64,000 nucleotides of DNA from the NCBI GenBank assembly GCA_022829145.1, contig CM040764.1, forward strand, positions 12,792,049 to 12,856,048. The letters are read 5' to 3'. The notes beneath the pieces are model-generated. The model did not search any database and was not told the DNA's origin. It worked only from the letters and a program-made list of their open reading frames with translations. This DNA comes from Albula goreensis. Taxonomy: Eukaryota; Chordata; Actinopteri; Albuliformes; Albulidae. A program made the position numbers and the translations under genes. Of this stretch, positions 7,177 to 50,400 are shown one piece after another; within the stretch, counting starts at the first letter, position 1; every line of letters begins with the position of its first letter.

Positions 7177-12254
<5,078 letters not shown>

Positions 12255-12868: not shown

Positions 12869-12952
<84 letters not shown>
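12869..12952. repeat. (TG)37 followed by (CG)5
   Basis: TG repeat at 12869-12942 runs straight into GCGCGCGCGC. This is an uninterrupted alternating purine-pyrimidine stretch of over 80 bases. Confidence 0.95.
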
Positions 12953-25700: not shown

Positions 25701-28700
25701 CTTTTATGATCAGATAAATGAGGTGCAACTAAGTTTCCCTGGCAGTGAATGTTGAAAATCTAAAATTATTAGAAAAATGTTTTTCTAATAAACAGAAGTA
25801 ACCAGACTGGTGATGACTCTCTGATCTAAAGAGCACAGACAAAGCAGGAACATGCTGCATGGCTGAAACCACACCTAGTTAGTCAGCTGTCAGTTCAGAT
25901 TAGTAAAATACCAAAGGAAGGGAGGGCACTACTTCAGAGTATTCACACAGGAGTTTAGTGGGACTTACTCTGAGCCTGCGTTACAGGAAGAGGATGCGAC
26001 GATGTTCTGGCAGTGGTGAGTGTCTAATGTTGGTCTCTTTGCCCGACACCCCCTGTAGCCCGCTGCCTGCAGTGCCGGATCCAGCGCTGCAACGCGGAGT
26101 ACGTTGCCTCCACGTCGCCCTCTGGTGGCCTCCAGGAGGAGCCGCTGGCCAGCGTGGGCTACTGCACCGCTCTGCGGGCCTACTCCCTCTGCACCCGCCG
26201 AACGGCCCGCGGCTGCCGTGGCGACCTGGTCTTCCACTCCGCTGTCTTCCGTATCAAGGAGCTCTTTTCCCAGCACAACTGTTCCAGCGAGGGCCCCACG
26301 TCCCCCACTAGGGCCGCCGGAACCCCCAGCCCTGCCGCTGCGTCACTGTGCGACTATGAGAGCTGGGCGCTGGCCTCGGGACCCGCCTCCGCCGGTTCAC
26401 AGGTCAGCTACGCCCACTGCGGACTATTCGGCGACCCCCACCTACGGACGTTCCGTGACGAGTTTCAGACATGCAAGGTGGAGGGGGCCTGGCCCCTCAT
26501 CGACAACCGCTACCTGTCTGTGCAGGTAACCAACGTGCCCGTTGTACTGGGCTCCAGCGCCACGGCAACAAGCAAGGTAAGCCACGACCTGTGGCATGCT
26601 GTTTTCAGTGACGGTGTTGTGCTAATCTCTGAATGAGAGCCTAATGTTTTACTGCATCAGCCGCCCATAGGGCTGTCTAGCACACTCTTGCCTCAGCTTA
26701 GGTTTGTCATATCTCTGACTCTGAGTGGTGTGGAAGATTTTAGAAAAAAAGTTATCTCAGTCATTTTTTTAATAATTTACACACAGTACAAAGCGTTATC
26801 CTGAGGCAACAGCCATCATTTTCCTAAGTAACAGTTCGGAAGAGGAACTTTTAAACAATTACATCCCTTGAAATTTGGCTTGCCCAATACTTCACTCAAT
26901 TTTCGCTCTTGCAGTGCATTCCACATGCAGAGACTTTAGCATATTTGCGCACATTTGTTTTGTCTCAGCCGCTACATTTTGCTGGTAAACACCTCCACAC
27001 TGTAAGGAACGAGAATCTCTGAACCCCACATATGTGAAGTGTTTGTGCGGGTAATGGCATGGTTTAAAGTGTAAAGTGTGAAACTGGTCATTAATGTCAG
27101 AAGGCGCTCACCACACTGCCTGGGAACAGCACGTACGCATCAGAAATCACCACACCAGGGATGATGCAGTTTGGACATTAGGGCAGCGGAGTTTTCCCAA
27201 CCCTGATCCTCTATCCTCACCTCAGACCGGCCCTCGCCGGCTTTGTAATCAGGAAATATTTGTTCTGGCTGTGAACGCTGCCAGGGTTAGGGCTCCGCAC
27301 CGCGCTGCTTTTTCCAGACTTATAGCACAGAGTTAGAAACGCAGTGGCAAATGTTAGGAAACTTGAGAAGAATTCCTGGTAATCTCTCAGATTTGGTGTT
27401 CAACCATTTGTTCTCAACTTTGAACTGCATTACATTCTAACTTCAGATGCACAGCATTTAAAAATGGGCAGATCTGTGCATAGTTCTGAAGTATCTGTTA
27501 CAATAAATGACCTGTATACTCTTCATGGAGGATCTGTGCGTATACTGTGGGTATATACAGAGTTGTTATGATGGTAACAAAGTGCTTTCCCTGAAATGAA
27601 CACAATATTCTGGGTAGCAGAATGGGTCTGGGTCATCAGTCTTTAAATGTCCCAGATAGCTTGTCTATTAGTTTTGCACATCTACACATGGGCCCCTAAA
27701 GTTTTTCATTTGTTTTTCTGTACATATTCACTTGCGAGAGTCACCTCTCTTTACCTGCAGTGTGCAGTCTTCTGTCCTGGATGTAACTGTATTCATATAA
27801 CGTAGTTTCTTGGAGCTCTTTGGGCTTTTCTGTCCTTAGGGGGAGAACTTTAATCTCAGGCTGGGGGCAGTTAGGTCTTCCCTGGCCACAGAGCACATTT
27901 CCACATGGCTCTGAGATGGAGCTGAACTCCAGCAGTTTCTAATAGTGGAAGGAGAACTGTGGAGCCTCCTTTGAAAACATTTTGGCTCTGAGGAATGTTT
28001 TTCCTATTTCTTATTGAGGGCCGCAGTGGAGAAATTCCTGTAGTTGACGGCTACGTGCTGAGATGCTCTTTCCTCCCTGTCAGACAGATTTCTCTGTTAC
28101 TTGACTTTTGTGACGTTTGTCAGTTTAATTTCCCCAGAGGTTAGAGCCGGGTTTGCAAACTCAATTCCTGGGCAGCTATAGTGTCTGCTGGTTTATTGGT
28201 GTTTTCCAGGTCCTAAGCTGCCCGATTTAAGATATCAATTGGTTAAAGAGTCCTCGCACTGTGTTTCCAAGGCCTACCTTGGCTTTTGATTCAGAGGAAA
28301 CCACAAAAACCTGCAGGCACTACAGAGTTTGAGTTTGTGGTCTTTTGGTTAGAAAGAACTTAGACTTAAATATCCTGTGATATATACACTTTTTTTTTTG
28401 TGTTATGGTAAGAAGCACAACTGTGTCTGATGATTTTCTAAATACTGTACAAGAAGTGATTGCTCTTGTTTTGGAATATATAATTAGATTATTTCTTAGA
28501 ATTTCTTCAAGCAAAAAATAAGGAATTATTTTATAAGAATAACTATTTGTCATGTATATATTACAGTTTATTCCATTATGTATTCCATAAAGAAAAGAAG
28601 TGTGTTGGAAAACCTAAAGTAAAATACAATGGAATAAACACTGGTAGTGTGTGTGGGAGATGGCATAGATCCTCAGTCTTGTTCTTTTACATCCACCAGA

Positions 28701-29799
28701 TGTAAATCATGTTGAGATGTTTGTTTCATAGTCTTTTCAAAGGAATGCCTCTTTAAGTATTACAGTGCCACCCTGTGGAGCTTTTAGGTACTACAGATGA
28801 GAATAACTTCCAAAGCAAGATAAAGCATTGTCATTTAGGAACTGTATAAGGTGTAAATATAATCATGTGCAATGAATAGAGATTAGGGAATTATTTTATA
28901 TAACAATTTATTATGTAATTTATCATAAAAATAGCTTGCCCTGTTTCTTGCCCATTCACTGTGGATGATAGATACACGATAAATGTAAGTGCATAGTTAT
29001 TTAATTTATTATTACTCTACCCCTCTCCCCTTCCTGCTCAGTCATTGTGTATGACAGGTACAGTTTAAGTATCAGTATATAGTTATGTAATGTATTGTTA
29101 CTCAGCCCCTCTCCCTTCCTGCTCACTCAGATCACAGTAATCTTCAAGGCGTTCCGCGGCTGCACGGAGCAGAAGGTGTATCAGGCTACTACAGAGGACC
29201 TGCCCTCGGCCTTCCTGGATGGGACACGAAGCGGCGGCGATGGGGCCAGCCTGTGGATCACGGAGCGGGGCGGGGTGGCAGATGGTGAGGGCCGTCAGGT
29301 GAAGATCCGGGCGCGCTACGTGGGGACCTCCATCATTGTGCGACAGGTGGGGCGCTACCTCACCTTTGCCATCCGCATGCCTGAGGCAGTACTTGGGTCG
29401 GCTGAGCAGGGTAGCGGCCTGCAGCTCTGCTTGACTGGCTGCCCGCAGGGCGAGCTGATTGGGGACGCCCATCCTGCCCTGCCCCAGGCCCCGCCCCAAC
29501 GCCAGGCCTTCACAGCAGAGCGGGCAGCGGCCAGGTGCAGAGAGACCCTAAAGGTGGAGGACGTTTACTTCCAGTCCTGCGTCTTTGACCTACTCACCAC
29601 AGGGGACCCCCAGTTTTCACTGGCTGCGTTTGGGGCGCTGGAGGACCTCAAAGCCCTGCCCCCCAGCAGGCTGGAGCAGGAGCAGGGCCCACTTGAGACT
29701 GGGACGTCCCAGATCTCCAACGCAGCTGCTCCATGTGGGACAGGGATGAAGCCCCACCTCCTGCTGCTCCTCCTCACACTGCTTCTGCTGCTTCTGTAA
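22376..29799 (+). CDS. rgmd: Repulsive guidance molecule (RGM) family GPI-anchored co-receptor, probably RGMd; complete, 3 coding exons
   Basis: Exons 22376-22469, 26059-26576 and 29131-29799 join in frame (phases 1 and 0) to give 426 residues, a normal RGM length. The order is: signal peptide (about 1-31); Cys-rich N-terminal domain with CRIQRCNAEY at 37-46, an RGD at 85-87 and an N-glycosylation sequon NCS at 105; a partial von Willebrand D domain with the FGDPH autocleavage motif (Asp157-Pro158); and a very hydrophobic leucine-rich C-terminus that fits a GPI-anchor signal. RGM proteins bind BMP ligands with the N-terminal domain and neogenin with the D domain at the cell surface. The N-terminal part resembles hemojuvelin (RCNAEYV, CTRRTARGCRGDL), while the second half resembles RGMa (CKVEGAWPLIDN, YFQSCVFDLLTTGD). 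The neighbouring celf5 favours rgmd over hjv or rgma. The family is certain; the paralogue is inferred. Confidence 0.9.
22711..22747. repeat. (AAAT)n tetranucleotide microsatellite in RGM intron 1
   Basis: About nine copies of ATAA/AAAT in phase. Confidence 0.95.
24415..24455 (+). repeat. G-rich tract with a 15-base G run
   Basis: GGGAGTGGGGTT, then about 15 G, then CGGGCGGTTTGGGG. At least four runs of three or more G are present on the RGM sense strand. Confidence 0.9.
24799..24839. repeat. 11-bp inverted repeat in RGM intron 1
   Basis: ATAAGGTTATA (24799-24809) and TATAACCTTAT (24829-24839) are exact reverse complements with a 19-base loop. CTCATAACCT recurs at about 24864 and 24900. Confidence 0.85.
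26059..26576 (+). CDS. rgmd: RGM exon 2: N-terminal Cys-rich domain, RGD, start of von Willebrand D domain with GDPH cleavage site
   Basis: The acceptor CCCCCTGTAG precedes 26059 and the donor AAG|GTAAGC follows 26576. The exon encodes residues 32-204, from ARCLQCRIQRC to GSSATATSK. Visible landmarks are the RGD (26217-26225), the NCS sequon (26277) and LFGDPHLRTF. Its Asp-Pro bond (26433-26438) is the known autoproteolysis site of RGM proteins. CKVEGAWPLIDN and SVQVTNVPVV follow. The exon is much richer in GC than the flanking introns. The phase 0 end after the ATAT(N/S)K motif is where RGM genes normally split. A second AG at 26071-26072 was rejected as the acceptor because it breaks the phase. 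Confidence 0.95.
28152..28340. mobile_element. Imperfect foldback (MITE-like) element in RGM intron 2
   Basis: The left arm GCAAACTCAATTCCTGGGCA...GTGTCTGCTGGTTT pairs imperfectly with the right arm AAACCTGCAGGCACTACAGAG...TTTGAGTTTG. This palindromic layout recurs in fish repeats. No clean target duplication was found. Confidence 0.4.
28956..29130 (+). repeat. Tandem duplication (~86 bp) containing the RGM intron 2 acceptor
   Basis: Copy one (about 28956-29041) and copy two (about 29042-29130) align along their length. GTGGATGATA at 28961 matches GTGTATGACA at 29047, ATAGTTAT recurs at 28993 and 29079, and TTCCTGCTCA recurs at 29031 and 29116. Each copy ends with a pyrimidine tract and an AG (29041 and 29130). 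The two AGs lie 89 bases apart. Confidence 0.75.
29131..29799 (+). CDS. rgmd: RGM exon 3: rest of von Willebrand D domain, C-terminal domain, GPI-anchor signal, stop
   Basis: The exon follows the acceptor TTCCTGCTCACTCAG and encodes residues 205-426, starting ITVIFKAFRGCTEQKVYQ and ending at TAA 29797-29799. Family signatures are VGRYLTFAIRMPE, LQLCLTGCP and VYFQSCVFDLLTTGDPQF. The last ~17 residues are almost all Leu after GMKPH, as expected for a GPI-attachment signal. The anchor residue is probably among the small residues just before it (SNAAAPCGTG). The linker rich in Pro, Ala and Gln (ALPQAPPQRQ) is low in complexity and looks poorly conserved. Confidence 0.95.
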   Translation: MTVIFKAFRGCTEQKVYQATTEDLPSAFLDGTRSGGDGASLWITERGGVADGEGRQVKIRARYVGTSIIVRQVGRYLTFAIRMPEAVLGSAEQGSGLQLCLTGCPQGELIGDAHPALPQAPPQRQAFTAERAAARCRETLKVEDVYFQSCVFDLLTTGDPQFSLAAFGALEDLKALPPSRLEQEQGPLETGTSQISNAAAPCGTGMKPHLLLLLLTLLLLLL

Positions 29800-35318: not shown

Positions 35319-35354
<36 letters not shown>

Positions 35355-36150
35355 GAACCTCAGTATTTTGGGAACACTGGTTATCCAAATTGGGTGTAAA
35401 CCAGGAGGTACCATGATAATTATGATTTATTGTCTCCACACACTGCTGAAAAAGGGTGAACATTAAACTAAAATGTTAACATATTACGCTTAGATAAAAA
35501 AACACAAAATACATGAATATAATTTGACAAAGGGACATGCATTGATACTGTTGCTAAAGGATAGTATCTAGATTTATATTCATATGTGCTGATGAAGAAT
35601 GATAATTTGTAATGGTGTAGGGAGAAGAAAAGCCAGAAGGGTCCATAAAAAGTTTTTTTGTTTTTTTTTGCTGTTTTTAGAATGATATGTCCAGGATAAT
35701 CTGTTTTGGGTATGGGCAAGAAGTAAGAAAGTTAGGTATTTGGACAGCATTTAGAACTGAATCCCCATGTTCATTACTGAAATAATTAAGAAAAAAATCA
35801 TATGGGTACATTTATATTTATGTCAATGCACATTCAAGAAAATTTCTCCAGATTTATTTGATGGCGTTTTGAAATGCACCCTGACTCTGACCCTAAGCAT
35901 GCTGCTAACTAGATCCAATGATTTGTTGTAAAAATAAAAAATAGAAATGTTGAGTGGTCATTTTATATTGAAATGATATTGAGCACCATTCTACTCAATA
36001 TCTAATGTATTCTGCTGAGTGCCAATGAAGTCCTGCAGACCATCTGAGATCATCCGAGTCTGGTGATGGCAGTATTACACAGGCTTTGTGCTGTTATGGC
36101 TTACAAAGAACGTGCAACAAAAAAAGTGAAGATGTATATAAATCACAATA
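32361..36150. other. Intergenic DNA, no gene recognised
   Basis: Two long non-repetitive stretches (32361-32720 and 34640-35240) look like regulatory DNA. Between them are an ACT/AAT/CAT trinucleotide cluster at 33583-33632 with an adjoining TATTTATATGGTGCTT (L2-tail-like), and a CA tract at 35321-35349. A 179-codon frame at 33253-33792 runs through the trinucleotide repeat and has no family features. Confidence 0.55.
35321..35349. repeat. (CA)14 microsatellite
   Basis: Twenty-nine bases of uninterrupted AC. Confidence 0.95.
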
Positions 36151-36151
36151 T

Positions 36152-36179
36152 ATGTGTGTGTGTGTGTGGGGTGTGTGGT

Positions 36180-36240
<61 letters not shown>

Positions 36241-36298
36241 ACGCAATTCTGACTTCACTGCCCTTGGTCTTATGGAGCAGGTCACTGTTTCTGCAAAT

Positions 36299-36329
<31 letters not shown>

Positions 36330-36430
36330 GTGGGGGTGTGTGGTGTGTGTGTGTGTGTGTGTGTGTGTGTGCACGCAATTCTGACTTCACTGCCCTTGGT
36401 CTTATGGAGCAGGCCACTGTTTCTGCAAAT

Positions 36431-36501
<71 letters not shown>

Positions 36502-36540
36502 TGTGGGGGGGTGTGTGTGTGTGTGTGTGTGTGTGGGTGT
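36152..36540. repeat. Compound (GT)n satellite with a duplicated 62-bp spacer
   Basis: Three GT blocks are separated by two copies of a 62-bp spacer at 36239-36300 and 36371-36432 (period 132). The spacers start GCACGCAATTCTGACTTCAC and end CTGCAAATAC. They differ at one base (GGTCACTG versus GGCCACTG). Confidence 0.95.
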
Positions 36541-45558: not shown

Positions 45559-45686
45559 TCAGTAAGGGCGGCTGGCGTCCTTCGGCCGCTTTAGCTGAAC
45601 TTTCAACCGCTTCATTCCGATCTGGAAGCCGTTCATAGCCTGGATGGCGGCCTGCGCACTGGCGGGGTTATCGAAGCTGACGAACC
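45559..45686 (-). CDS. celf5: celf5 last coding exon: end of RRM3 and stop
   Basis: The acceptor TATCTCACAG precedes GGTTCGTCAGC, and the stop TGA is at 45561-45559. It encodes [37 protein letters not shown] and ASRPY. GFVSF completes RNP1. The C-terminal pentapeptide differs slightly from the ANRPY of several CELF proteins. The 3' UTR continues to lower coordinates with no clear end. Confidence 0.97.
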
Positions 45687-47386
45687 CTGTGAGATAGAGG
45701 GGCAAAACACAGACGCTTTGACACACAAAGGAATGCACACCTGTTCTTGGCAAATGTGTAGCATGTTCACTGTGGTGAAGTGTATTGATGAACAAACCTG
45801 GGATAGTGGTTAGTGAGTCAGAATTGGGACATCTGATTTAATACAGGATTTTAATGAGTGTTTAACTGTAAGAAAGCTGGAATTTGAAGAACTAAAGCAG
45901 TGGTGATCGGTGCATGGCTACACCCACAGCTGGGGTTCAGGTTCCCTACTCAAATTCAGCTGGATAACTCAAACAAAGAGCCCAGGTGCTTTGCATAAAT
46001 GAATAAGATATCCCCCTGTAACAAGGTCTAGGGGGAGAAGAGGGAGTGACTGTGCCCCCATCACCCCCCTCCCCCCCACAAGTCCTGTCCTGAGGCAGAG
46101 AATCAAGCCCCTTTTGGATTTCACATTAACATAGTAAACATGAGTCATTTTGCATCTGTTTTTGGCATATCTGGGCCCTGCAACAGACTCTAAACACTAT
46201 CACTTGCTTCTTTGGGAACGCAATGTACCGTACCATACATGAACTAGCGAACATTAATTTCTAGCTAGCACGAACGCAGTGTGACCCAGACCCTGTTTTT
46301 CGGTGTCTTGATTTTAAAAACTGCCCATCTCTGTGCCCGACACACTTGGGAACATTTTGCGGCGGCGCTCCCGTCACATTGCAAAGCATGTGCGCTGACC
46401 GTATCAAACAGCAGCGGACTGCACTCTGTCTGCTCTCCGTGTGACAGTTCTGCTGAGAGACGTGCAGCGAAAGGGGGGAAGCCCGGGGCCATGTTCGCAG
46501 AGCGTCTCAGAGTACGCCTGCTACACCACGAAACAGCTTTGCCTTTTAGCTCACAGCCGCTGAGGTGAAAAATATGAGTTGGGACCCAATCAAACAAACC
46601 CGGCCTCTTCAAGGGCATCTGCGGTTCAAGGCAAATGGAATCTAGTCTTTTTAAGGGTGTTCTAGAATGAACAGAATATATGCAATAATCCAGTAAGAAT
46701 ATCGCTGGGAAGAAAATCTCAAGAATAATACCCCAGTCTGGCAGGCTGATTTCCATCTGGTCCTCAGTGCGCTTCCCAGAAGAGGGAACATGTCAGTGGC
46801 TCACTATGTTTGGTGTACGTGTCAGAGTAGAGATGATTTAATATGAGTGCTGGGAGAGAGAGCTCTTATGAACACTAATGAATGGAGCTGCAGTGTGATG
46901 TGTCACTGATCAGTGACTGTTTGAACCAGTCTGTAGTTTTGCTCTTCAATAAAAAAATGCAGTAATTTTTTCAAATTATTGAGTCTGGTTTTATGGTAGT
47001 TCTGTATGTTTTTTTTTGTTTAATGAAAACTTACTTTCCTGTCACCTCTGAATACATGTGATAGATGTAGAAAACCTCATTCCATCTCAAGTGATGCCTG
47101 ATCACTTGAGACTCACCGCCGCACTATTAAACTGTGTCTGACTCGCAGAAACGCTGTTTAATCGCACTGTTTGACTCACCGCAGCACTATTAAACTGTCT
47201 GACTCTCAGAAACACTGTTTAATCGCACTGTTTGACTCACCGAAGCACTTGCTCTGGTTGGTGGCCCGGTCCATGAACACCTTGGAGGAGATGACGCTGC
47301 CAAAGGGGAGGAACATCTGCATGAGCTCGCTGTCTCCAAACTCCTGTGGCAGGTGGTAGATGAAGAGGTTGCAGCCTTCAGGCCCT

Positions 47387-47431
<45 letters not shown>

Positions 47432-50400
47432 GCCCCACATACACACGCAAACACGCATACACAAAAAAAGAGTCATTTCATATATTATGTGATATATCAT
47501 GAGATTATTGCTTGTTCACATATTATGTGAAGATTATACAGCCAAATATAAGCTGTAATGTTTGTGCTGCAGACTCATTCTTTCCCTGCAACATGCCTGC
47601 TGCCAGCTTCTCTAGACTCTGCAGACCCCCTTTTCAGCTGCACAGTTGTTGTCAGAGGAGGAAAGCTTCGTGCGCAGCTGGTGCATGCAGATTGCAGGCA
47701 GGTTCCAAGCACCTGATTGGCTAGAGGAGTCTCTTTGTGCAATGAATTGCTCATGGTAACCATCCCACCCTGAGCGATTCTACAGCCAATTACGTGCTGT
47801 CCTGCAGGGCTGCCCAGCAACAGTCGATCCAAAGCCACAGAACAGATACACGTACTCTGGTGCCCAGTATGTTAGCATTGTGGGCTGCCATGCAGCCCGC
47901 ATACTTTCCCTGCCTGTTCTCACAGACAGCCCAGTTTCCTTCCCCACAGTCAGCCGATAAAAGAGGCATTCAGCTGCGCTCTGGCTCTCTCACCTTCCCT
48001 CTGCTGTGGTTGCTGGATGACCTGAGGCGGCTGTGGCATCGTCTGGCCAATAGGGGTCAGTGTGGTCGCTGGGTAAATGGCTGCAGAATTCAGAAGAGTG
48101 GTGAGGAGGGGGGAGGGGGGGGAGGGGTTGGGGAGGAGGATCAGAGAGTGTAACAGATTTGTAACATTTAAAGCATTATTGCATCAGTCAGAATCGTTTA
48201 GCTCTTTTTTTTCTGCTCGGATCGTTCCATCCACTGAACTTATGTTTGATGGCCAATTTAGAAACTGAATGCTCTAGGTGCTGTGCCATATGAATTCCCC
48301 CAGGCAAATGTTTATGGCTGTACAGCAGAGACTGCAACCCAAAGTTAATCTGTAACCCCACATCTGCTGGAACCTCTGAGACTTTGCTGACAGCGCACCC
48401 TAATCAAGGGTGTATATTGCACATACCGTTAGCTCAAATATTGTAATGGTGATAATTATGATAAATTAAACATACAGAGTGCTCGCATATTAGTCCAGCT
48501 TTCACTTCAGCAAAAATTTTCCACATATGTGATGTAAGATACTGTAAGAACTTGTATGGAAATCAACAAGGCCGAGTTCAGTTCAGTCATATGAGAGGGT
48601 GTCAGGACATATCAATCCTGGGTAATGGGCAGTGGCCCCTAAGGACTGTTGAGAAAGTCTGTGCTATACCCTGCAGCTGGATATTTATTGTGGGGAGGAG
48701 GGGGTATGCTCAAGTGCAGGATTGAAGCCTGCAACCTCGTTGACTTTGTATCTTTCCGTACCGGTGTATTGCTGGACCCCAGTGAAGGCCTGCTGGAGGG
48801 TGTCGGCGGCCGTGGGACTCTGGGCAGAGTAAGTAGGCAGGCCATTGGTGTAGACCGCCTCCACGGCCTGCGCTGGGTGCCCATTGGGCTGGTGGGGGAT
48901 GCCGGTGAAGCCGTTGACGATGGGCGTGACGATGCTGGGCACAGCGGAGGTGGCGATGCTGGCGGGAGGGGAGGTGAGGCCTGTGGGGGGGGAGCAAGAA
49001 AGAGTGTGCCTGTTTTACCCACTGTTCAGTACCATTAACAACGCAATAAGTGACTTTCCAAATGTGAATTTATAAGTTTTGTGCTCTTTATCATTAAGTG
49101 GTCCATCTAGAGCTCGATGAAAGTTAACTCGGCCACTTCAGCGTCAGCCTCAGCCTCCCCAGCCCGCAGTTTTGGGAACCACTGCACTGCGAGATAGGAG
49201 AGCACACAGAAACCATCTGGCCTGGCTGCGGTTTCTCAAACCCTGCATGATGCAACCGAGGTGTAATCGCTGTACTGTGGTGCAGTCTCTCTCCCTCTCT
49301 CTCTCTGGTGAATACAAATACGGCCTTTTACAGAATTTTTTGCTCCTTGTATGCGGCACTGACATTCTGTCCGTGCTAAAATGGGTGAGGTTTTATATTT
49401 TTACATTTTTTTTTTGGCGAATCAAATCTTTTTCAGGCCATATCGGCAGGGGACAGTCACTGAAAAAAGACCAGGTAAAAAAGAGAGAAGGCCCAGATAA
49501 CAGAACCTAACACAATATATAGAAAATAAATATGCATTTTAGGCAATGTTGAAAACAGTTCTCCATACATACGTACATTTTTGGTGGGGCGGGTGACAAA
49601 GTGGTTCATCTTTCAGCTTTTTGGGTTACATGCCGGTTTCTATTCTAAGTTCTATTATCAGTTATTATTTAGCCTGATTATCTATATAATCTGACATTTA
49701 GCAAAATTTCTCATTAAGATCATCAGTGACAGCTGAGAAATATTTTTGTCATCCTGTCTGACTTTTTCTATTGAGGTCTCATCCATGAGATAACCTGAGT
49801 TGGTGTGTATGGACAGCTAGCTGGCTGATCCAAGGTAACTGGCGGAAATGTAAGCCTGTATGACTACAGCCATCCGGGAGTGGAGACGCCCATCCTTGCT
49901 TTAGAGTTCGCGAGAATCTGTCCTTGTGACACAGTCTGCTCCTGTTGCTGAGTGTCACAAAGAGAAGGTGAAATGGAAGGGTGTGCGCTTCTGTGCGTTT
50001 AAGCCAGACCTGCACTTCACCTCCCCACCAGCACCTCCTCTGTGCCAGAGCGTTACGCAACAGCCTGCCTTCAGTCCATGGCCGAGAGGAGCTGGTTGCC
50101 ATGGAAACGCTTTGAGGCTAGCCGCTCTCGCAACATGGCCCTCAAAAGACCCTGAAACTACTGCTAATAATAACAACAACAGTTTCATAATCCCTTATTA
50201 TTTTTTTTAACATATTGTCATATTGGTTGTAATGCACAGTATCAAACTGGGTGTAGTCTCTTTGAATTTAGGGTCTTGAAGCCCTTAGGCTGTGCGGACA
50301 TGTTCAGGCAAACACTTTCACAGGGGCTGTGGTGTTAGACTGTCTGAATGACCCTCCCCAGTCTGACCAGTGCCCTTCGTCTCACCGTCCTTTGCTCCCC

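Follow-up and report, generated by a model that had tools for sequence, protein, structure and literature searches.

A long UG repeat at the acceptor of an exon that encodes part of an RNA-recognition domain of a CELF protein raises the question of whether UG-binding proteins, and perhaps the encoded protein itself, control the splicing of that exon. We analysed such a case in a 64-kb stretch of DNA from the fish Albula goreensis (64,000 nucleotides, called the window below).

The RRM3 exon of a celf5-like gene

The gene lies on the minus strand, to which all celf5 coordinates given here refer. It was located with a human CELF5 query in tblastn, and its splice sites were read by eye. Six coding exons of the 3' half of the gene lie between 59696 and 45559; with the same query, tblastn produced no convincing match to RRM1 in the window, and only the end of RRM2. 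The RRM3 exon is 144 nt long (47241 to 47384, GGCCTG...GCTTCG) and encodes the first half of RRM3, from RNP2 to the start of RNP1. The second half of the domain, through to the stop codon, is encoded by the downstream exon (45559 to 45686). An intron of 609 nt (47385 to 47993, GTGAGA...TTACAG) separates the RRM3 exon from the upstream exon, which ends in ...QREG (47994 to 48080).

The product of the RRM3 exon and the exon that follows it matches Pfam RRM_1 and is an RRM3 of the CELF type: its matches in PDB are to RRM3 of CELF2 (2my7, E 1.9e-48) and to RRM3 of CELF1 (2cpz, identical in sequence to 2rq4 and 2rqc, E 1.9e-46). Over 49 residues, the RRM3 region is 91.8% identical to the human CELF5 query, a comparison confined to CELF5 among the CELF3-6 paralogues. 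We call the gene celf5-like, a choice among CELF3-6 for which human CELF5 is the sole reference. A tblastn search with a 49-residue RRM3 query found no relatives in viral and prokaryote contigs (0/21 and 0/103 pattern matches). The window also contains an RGM gene, with open frames on the plus strand at 26028-26633 and 29083-29796 (Pfam RGM_N and RGM_C).

The preliminary description of this locus held that the 144-base exon could be skipped in frame and that skipping would delete most of RRM3. Both statements agree with our analysis: joining the flanking exons keeps the frame, and positions 41-70 of the 70 in Pfam RRM_1 are all that remain of the domain. Thus, RNP2 would be lost from the skipped product.

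A mammalian exon of this kind has been reported. CELF2 exon 14 is an alternative exon of 144 nt, and the product made when it is skipped, the R3delta isoform, lacks (UG)3 binding; the skipped form accounts for 8.1-22.1% of transcripts across three mouse tissues, and the authors consider a similar isoform predictable for CELF4 (PMC3368720). The celf5 exon shares with CELF2 exon 14 its length, its frame and its position in the first half of RRM3, so that in both genes skipping removes the half domain that reads UG. However, CELF2 is another paralogue, studied in a mammal, and the available passages of that report describe neither a UG tract nor feedback at exon 14. The celf5 exon is best explained as the fish counterpart of the CELF2 exon 14 cassette, its skipping in the fish gene being hypothetical.

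A UG tract adjoining the RRM3-exon acceptor

On the minus strand, the intron ends with CTTTC, (TG)18 and TTACAG, and the exon begins GGCCTGAAGGC. Tandem Repeats Finder reports a pure (UG)18.5 tract at 47390 to 47426 (period 2, 18.5 copies, 100% match). Direct reading and this program thus confirm that (UG)18 followed by UUACAG immediately precedes the RRM3 exon, as had been described. The acceptor itself is TACAG (47385 to 47389), the end of the intron, and its AG fits the CELF reading frame.

Pyrimidines occupy 10 of the 20 positions from -23 to -4 at this acceptor, compared with 14-18 of 20 at the five remaining celf5 acceptors of the window; among the six, only the RRM3-exon acceptor is pyrimidine-poor. 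The AG-free zone upstream of the exon, which is delimited in the next section, has 19.0 UGU per 100 nt, a density that falls to 7.1 when the pure tract is taken out and that compares with 2.5 in the celf5 pre-mRNA of the window.

An interrupted UG array (47436 to 47463, with 22 of 27 positions in TG phase) lies between a U run and the pure repeat. Outside perfect tracts, neither strand of the window has another stretch of this kind. Its position and phase, in the one genome at hand, suggest that it is an older, decaying part of the same UG array.

The UG repeat had also been said to replace the polypyrimidine tract. That view holds insofar as the repeat adjoins the acceptor and the acceptor is poor in pyrimidines. 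However, a polypyrimidine tract of 10 nt, CUCUUUUUUU (47463 to 47472), is present farther upstream, just after a candidate branch point, and the UG sequence lies between CUCUUUUUUU and the AG.

A putative distant branch point

From the acceptor back to the previous AG, an AG exclusion zone extends over 126 nt (47385 to 47510). Within it, a stretch of 51 nt (47389 to 47439) contains no A and hence no standard branch point. A standard branch point must thus be located at least 55 nt upstream of the 3' splice site. The best-placed candidate is AUGAC (47472 to 47476), whose presumed branch A, at 47473, is 88 nt from the 3' splice site. AUGAC departs from yUnAy in its first base alone, and CUCUUUUUUU directly follows it. 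The As at 55 and 73 nt are in UGUAU and lack a U two bases before, whereas the A at 88 nt has that U. A full match to yUnAy is provided by CUCAU at 115 nt, but no pyrimidine tract comes after it (10 of the 24 following bases are pyrimidines); weaker candidates are at 100, 105, 112 and 120 nt.

The acceptor therefore combines an AG-free zone of at least 100 nt (126 nt), a lack of near As, and a far candidate that is accompanied by a pyrimidine tract. On these features, the RRM3-exon acceptor is probably a distant-branch-point acceptor in which the AG-free gap is filled by a UG repeat. Human distant-branch-point exons likewise have AG-free zones of more than 100 nt whose upstream part contains a candidate branch point and a pyrimidine tract, although the celf5 gap differs from those reported in holding a microsatellite, and the celf5 branch point is known as a sequence candidate. 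It has been estimated that a fifth to half of human AG-free zones of at least 100 nt mark distant branch points, and exons with such zones include 68 cassettes among 235, versus 47 expected (PMC1431707).

The acceptor of the preceding celf5 exon has an AG-free zone of 121 nt as well (48081-48201). This zone is C-rich near its end, where it contains ample pyrimidines and As. Thus, the length of the zone alone is weak evidence for a distant branch point.

A local structure that would join the branch point and the AG was considered and rejected, as the 96-nt stretch concerned is no stabler than its shuffles (z 0.28; 120 of 200 shuffles are at least as stable). When folded in its exon-intron context, the tract is paired with a mean probability of 0.69, spread across many partners of which none exceeds 0.33; a poly-UG quadruplex fold (12 repeats) is outside what the folding programs used can represent. 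A mobile-element origin for the end of the intron was also rejected: blastn of 47600-47430 against the window returned the query itself and one 29-nt match, in the TG tract at 8905-8933.

Repeated donors at the other end of the exon

The sequence GTGAGTC, directly after the RRM3 exon, is the exon's donor. A triplication of this donor had been described previously, and a tandem duplication at 47110-47249 indeed carries three near-identical donors. These are the exon donor and two near-copies, 61 and 124 nt downstream (47116 to 47240, with GT at 47240, 47179 and 47116), and each of the three agrees with the consensus at 6 of 9 positions. If the extra donors were used, the message would contain an in-frame stop at 47208-47206, which would precede the new junction by 26 or 89 nt. 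As far as can be read from the DNA, RRM3-exon splicing is unusual at both ends, and the donor repeat is a feature separate from the UG tract.

Base rate of GT tracts

Sense tracts of at least 12 units number 13 on both strands of the 64-kb window, some of them clustered. The expected number of tracts that end within 10 nt of a particular acceptor is ~0.001, or 0.006 for six acceptors, under random placement with clustered tracts counted singly. Beside the other twelve tracts, exons were sought for celf5 and the one RGM gene. However, ~10% of zebrafish introns are reported to carry a (GT)n tract before the acceptor and, paired with it, an (AC)n tract downstream of the donor (PMC6093180, citing Lin et al. 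2016), and poly-UG of at least 12 repeats is reported to be enriched near human splice sites (PMC12276007). Because GT tracts are thus reported to be enriched at splice sites in both fish and humans, the true surprise is smaller than the chance figure implies, and the coincidence of a UG tract with a CELF gene must not be taken for a rare event. Among the literature matches listed, no title mentions a UG tract at an acceptor of celf5 in fish.

Two other places in the window have AC and GT tracts in proximity. Pure tracts of (CA)63.5 (12126-12252) and (TG)37 (12869-12942) are 616 nt apart and give the order AC...GT on either strand, which is the layout reported for zebrafish structured introns. 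At 35321-36540, several GT tracts with a 132-bp repeat unit lie ~0.8 kb beyond (AC)14.5.

Possible control of skipping by UG-binding proteins

From the observed layout, the preserved frame and the domain lost, we infer a branch point, protein binding and skipping as follows. U2 would most likely pair at AUGAC, 88 nt upstream of the splice site, and U2AF would use the adjoining CUCUUUUUUU. The splice site would be the first AG downstream, which closes a 78-nt UG-rich stretch that ends in the perfect (UG)18. TDP-43 or CELF proteins that coat this stretch would probably hinder U2 and U2AF or the use of the AG, and some transcripts would then skip the exon. Without the first half of RRM3, the resulting protein would be missing the portion that recognises UG repeats. 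We consider it plausible, at somewhat less than even confidence, that skipping is tuned in this way by UG-binding proteins at a distant-branch-point acceptor of an exon resembling CELF2 exon 14.

The 51 nt free of A and the 126 nt free of AG, the low pyrimidine content and the UGU density favor this reading, as do the precedents of CELF2 exon 14 and of TDP-43 at CFTR. In CFTR, an extended UG repeat upstream of exon 9 leads to TDP-43-dependent skipping (PMC12171016). The (TG)m(T)n acceptor of CFTR exon 9 and the celf5 acceptor both have a long UG repeat and a short U run at the 3' splice site, but in CFTR the U run comes after the UG repeat, whereas in celf5 it lies 36 nt before the pure UG run, and that run adjoins the AG. 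TDP-43 is reported to prefer long UG repeats, and when nuclear TDP-43 is raised, constitutive exons with nearby UG motifs skip; against this reading, the UG motifs of exons skipped upon TDP-43 overexpression are short and are slightly commoner at the downstream donor (PMC11163724).

Counting against control by UG-binding proteins are the rival branch candidates, CUCAU in particular, the 121-nt zone at the preceding exon, and the frequency of GT tracts in zebrafish, where those at acceptors presumably occur mostly without regulated skipping. In addition, the available passages of the report on CELF2 exon 14 do not link its skipping to UG repeats (PMC3368720).

Alternative explanations

Nearly as likely as regulation by UG binders is that the tract is an ordinary fish microsatellite. 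UG would have grown where it was tolerated, since a UG run at an intron end is half U and introduces neither AG nor A; the exon would be constitutive, and the CELF identity of the gene coincidental. The purity of the repeat fits a young, length-variable microsatellite, and the 13 sense tracts in 64 kb and the poly-UG enrichment near human splice sites noted above (PMC12276007) are in keeping with this origin. So too is the zebrafish class of (GT)n introns (PMC6093180), except that those tracts are AC-paired and the celf5 tract is without the AC partner of this common fish class. The neighbouring interrupted array suggests instead that UG has long been present, and the tract falls on an exon whose CELF2 counterpart is skipped (PMC3368720).

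Feedback by CELF5 proper, in which rising CELF5 or a sister CELF protein represses the RRM3 exon of its own gene and so produces a protein unable to read UG repeats, is unlikely. Its model would be CELF2, which represses its own exon 6 through GU and UGUGU motifs, ~20 nt from each other, that flank branch points (PMC2715136). The celf5 intron likewise belongs to a CELF gene and has a UGUG (47520) and a UGUGU (47463) on either side of its branch-point candidates; the UGUGU starts 10 nt downstream, and the UGUG 47 nt upstream, of the best-placed one. However, these motifs are 57 nt apart, exon 6 is another exon, whose skipping shifts the frame, and a long repeat is absent from the available passages on CELF2 exon 6 (PMC2715136). 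CELF1 prefers UGUNxUGUNyUGU, and RRM3 is the strongest binder among its isolated RRMs (PMC3737555), which is consistent with CELF binding to the celf5 tract, but the preference of TDP-43 for long UG repeats means that it would compete (PMC11163724). Moreover, CELF2 mRNA is high in mouse brain relative to kidney and liver, yet exon 14 skipping is lowest there, at 8.1% (PMC3368720), which argues against simple negative feedback at that CELF2 exon.

It is very improbable that the intron is a structured AC/GT intron, in which an AC run near the donor base-pairs with the UG run and U2AF2 is dispensable for splicing. A short fish intron with a GT tract at its acceptor is what has been reported for the zebrafish class (Lin et al. 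2016, via PMC6093180), but the (AC)n partner that defines the class is absent from the donor end, so that class membership was rejected: the best 16-nt match to (AC)n is 7/16 in the first 200 nt and 9/16 in the intron upstream of the tract. The tract pairs with the donor end at -25.6 kcal/mol, an energy that 19% of 400 random celf5 stretches attain, whereas (CA)10 would give -37.0.

Implications

Regulation of CELF5 by a UG-binding protein already has a human precedent, as a cryptic exon repressed by TDP-43 has been reported in human CELF5 (PMC7619245); the exon concerned there is a different one from the RRM3 exon. A further form of self-regulation, which we regard as quite improbable, is a length-variable dial in fish brain: CELF5 would bind its own UG stretch and skip the exon for the half domain that reads UG, the product would be blind to the repeat, and the CELF5 dose point would differ between alleles according to (UG) length. 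If inclusion of the RRM3 exon is unresponsive, the tract simply adds to the ordinary GT tracts found at fish intron ends. If, however, inclusion responds to UG binders or to the length of the tract, the locus would be a natural example of a microsatellite that determines how much of its own repeat-reading domain a protein retains.
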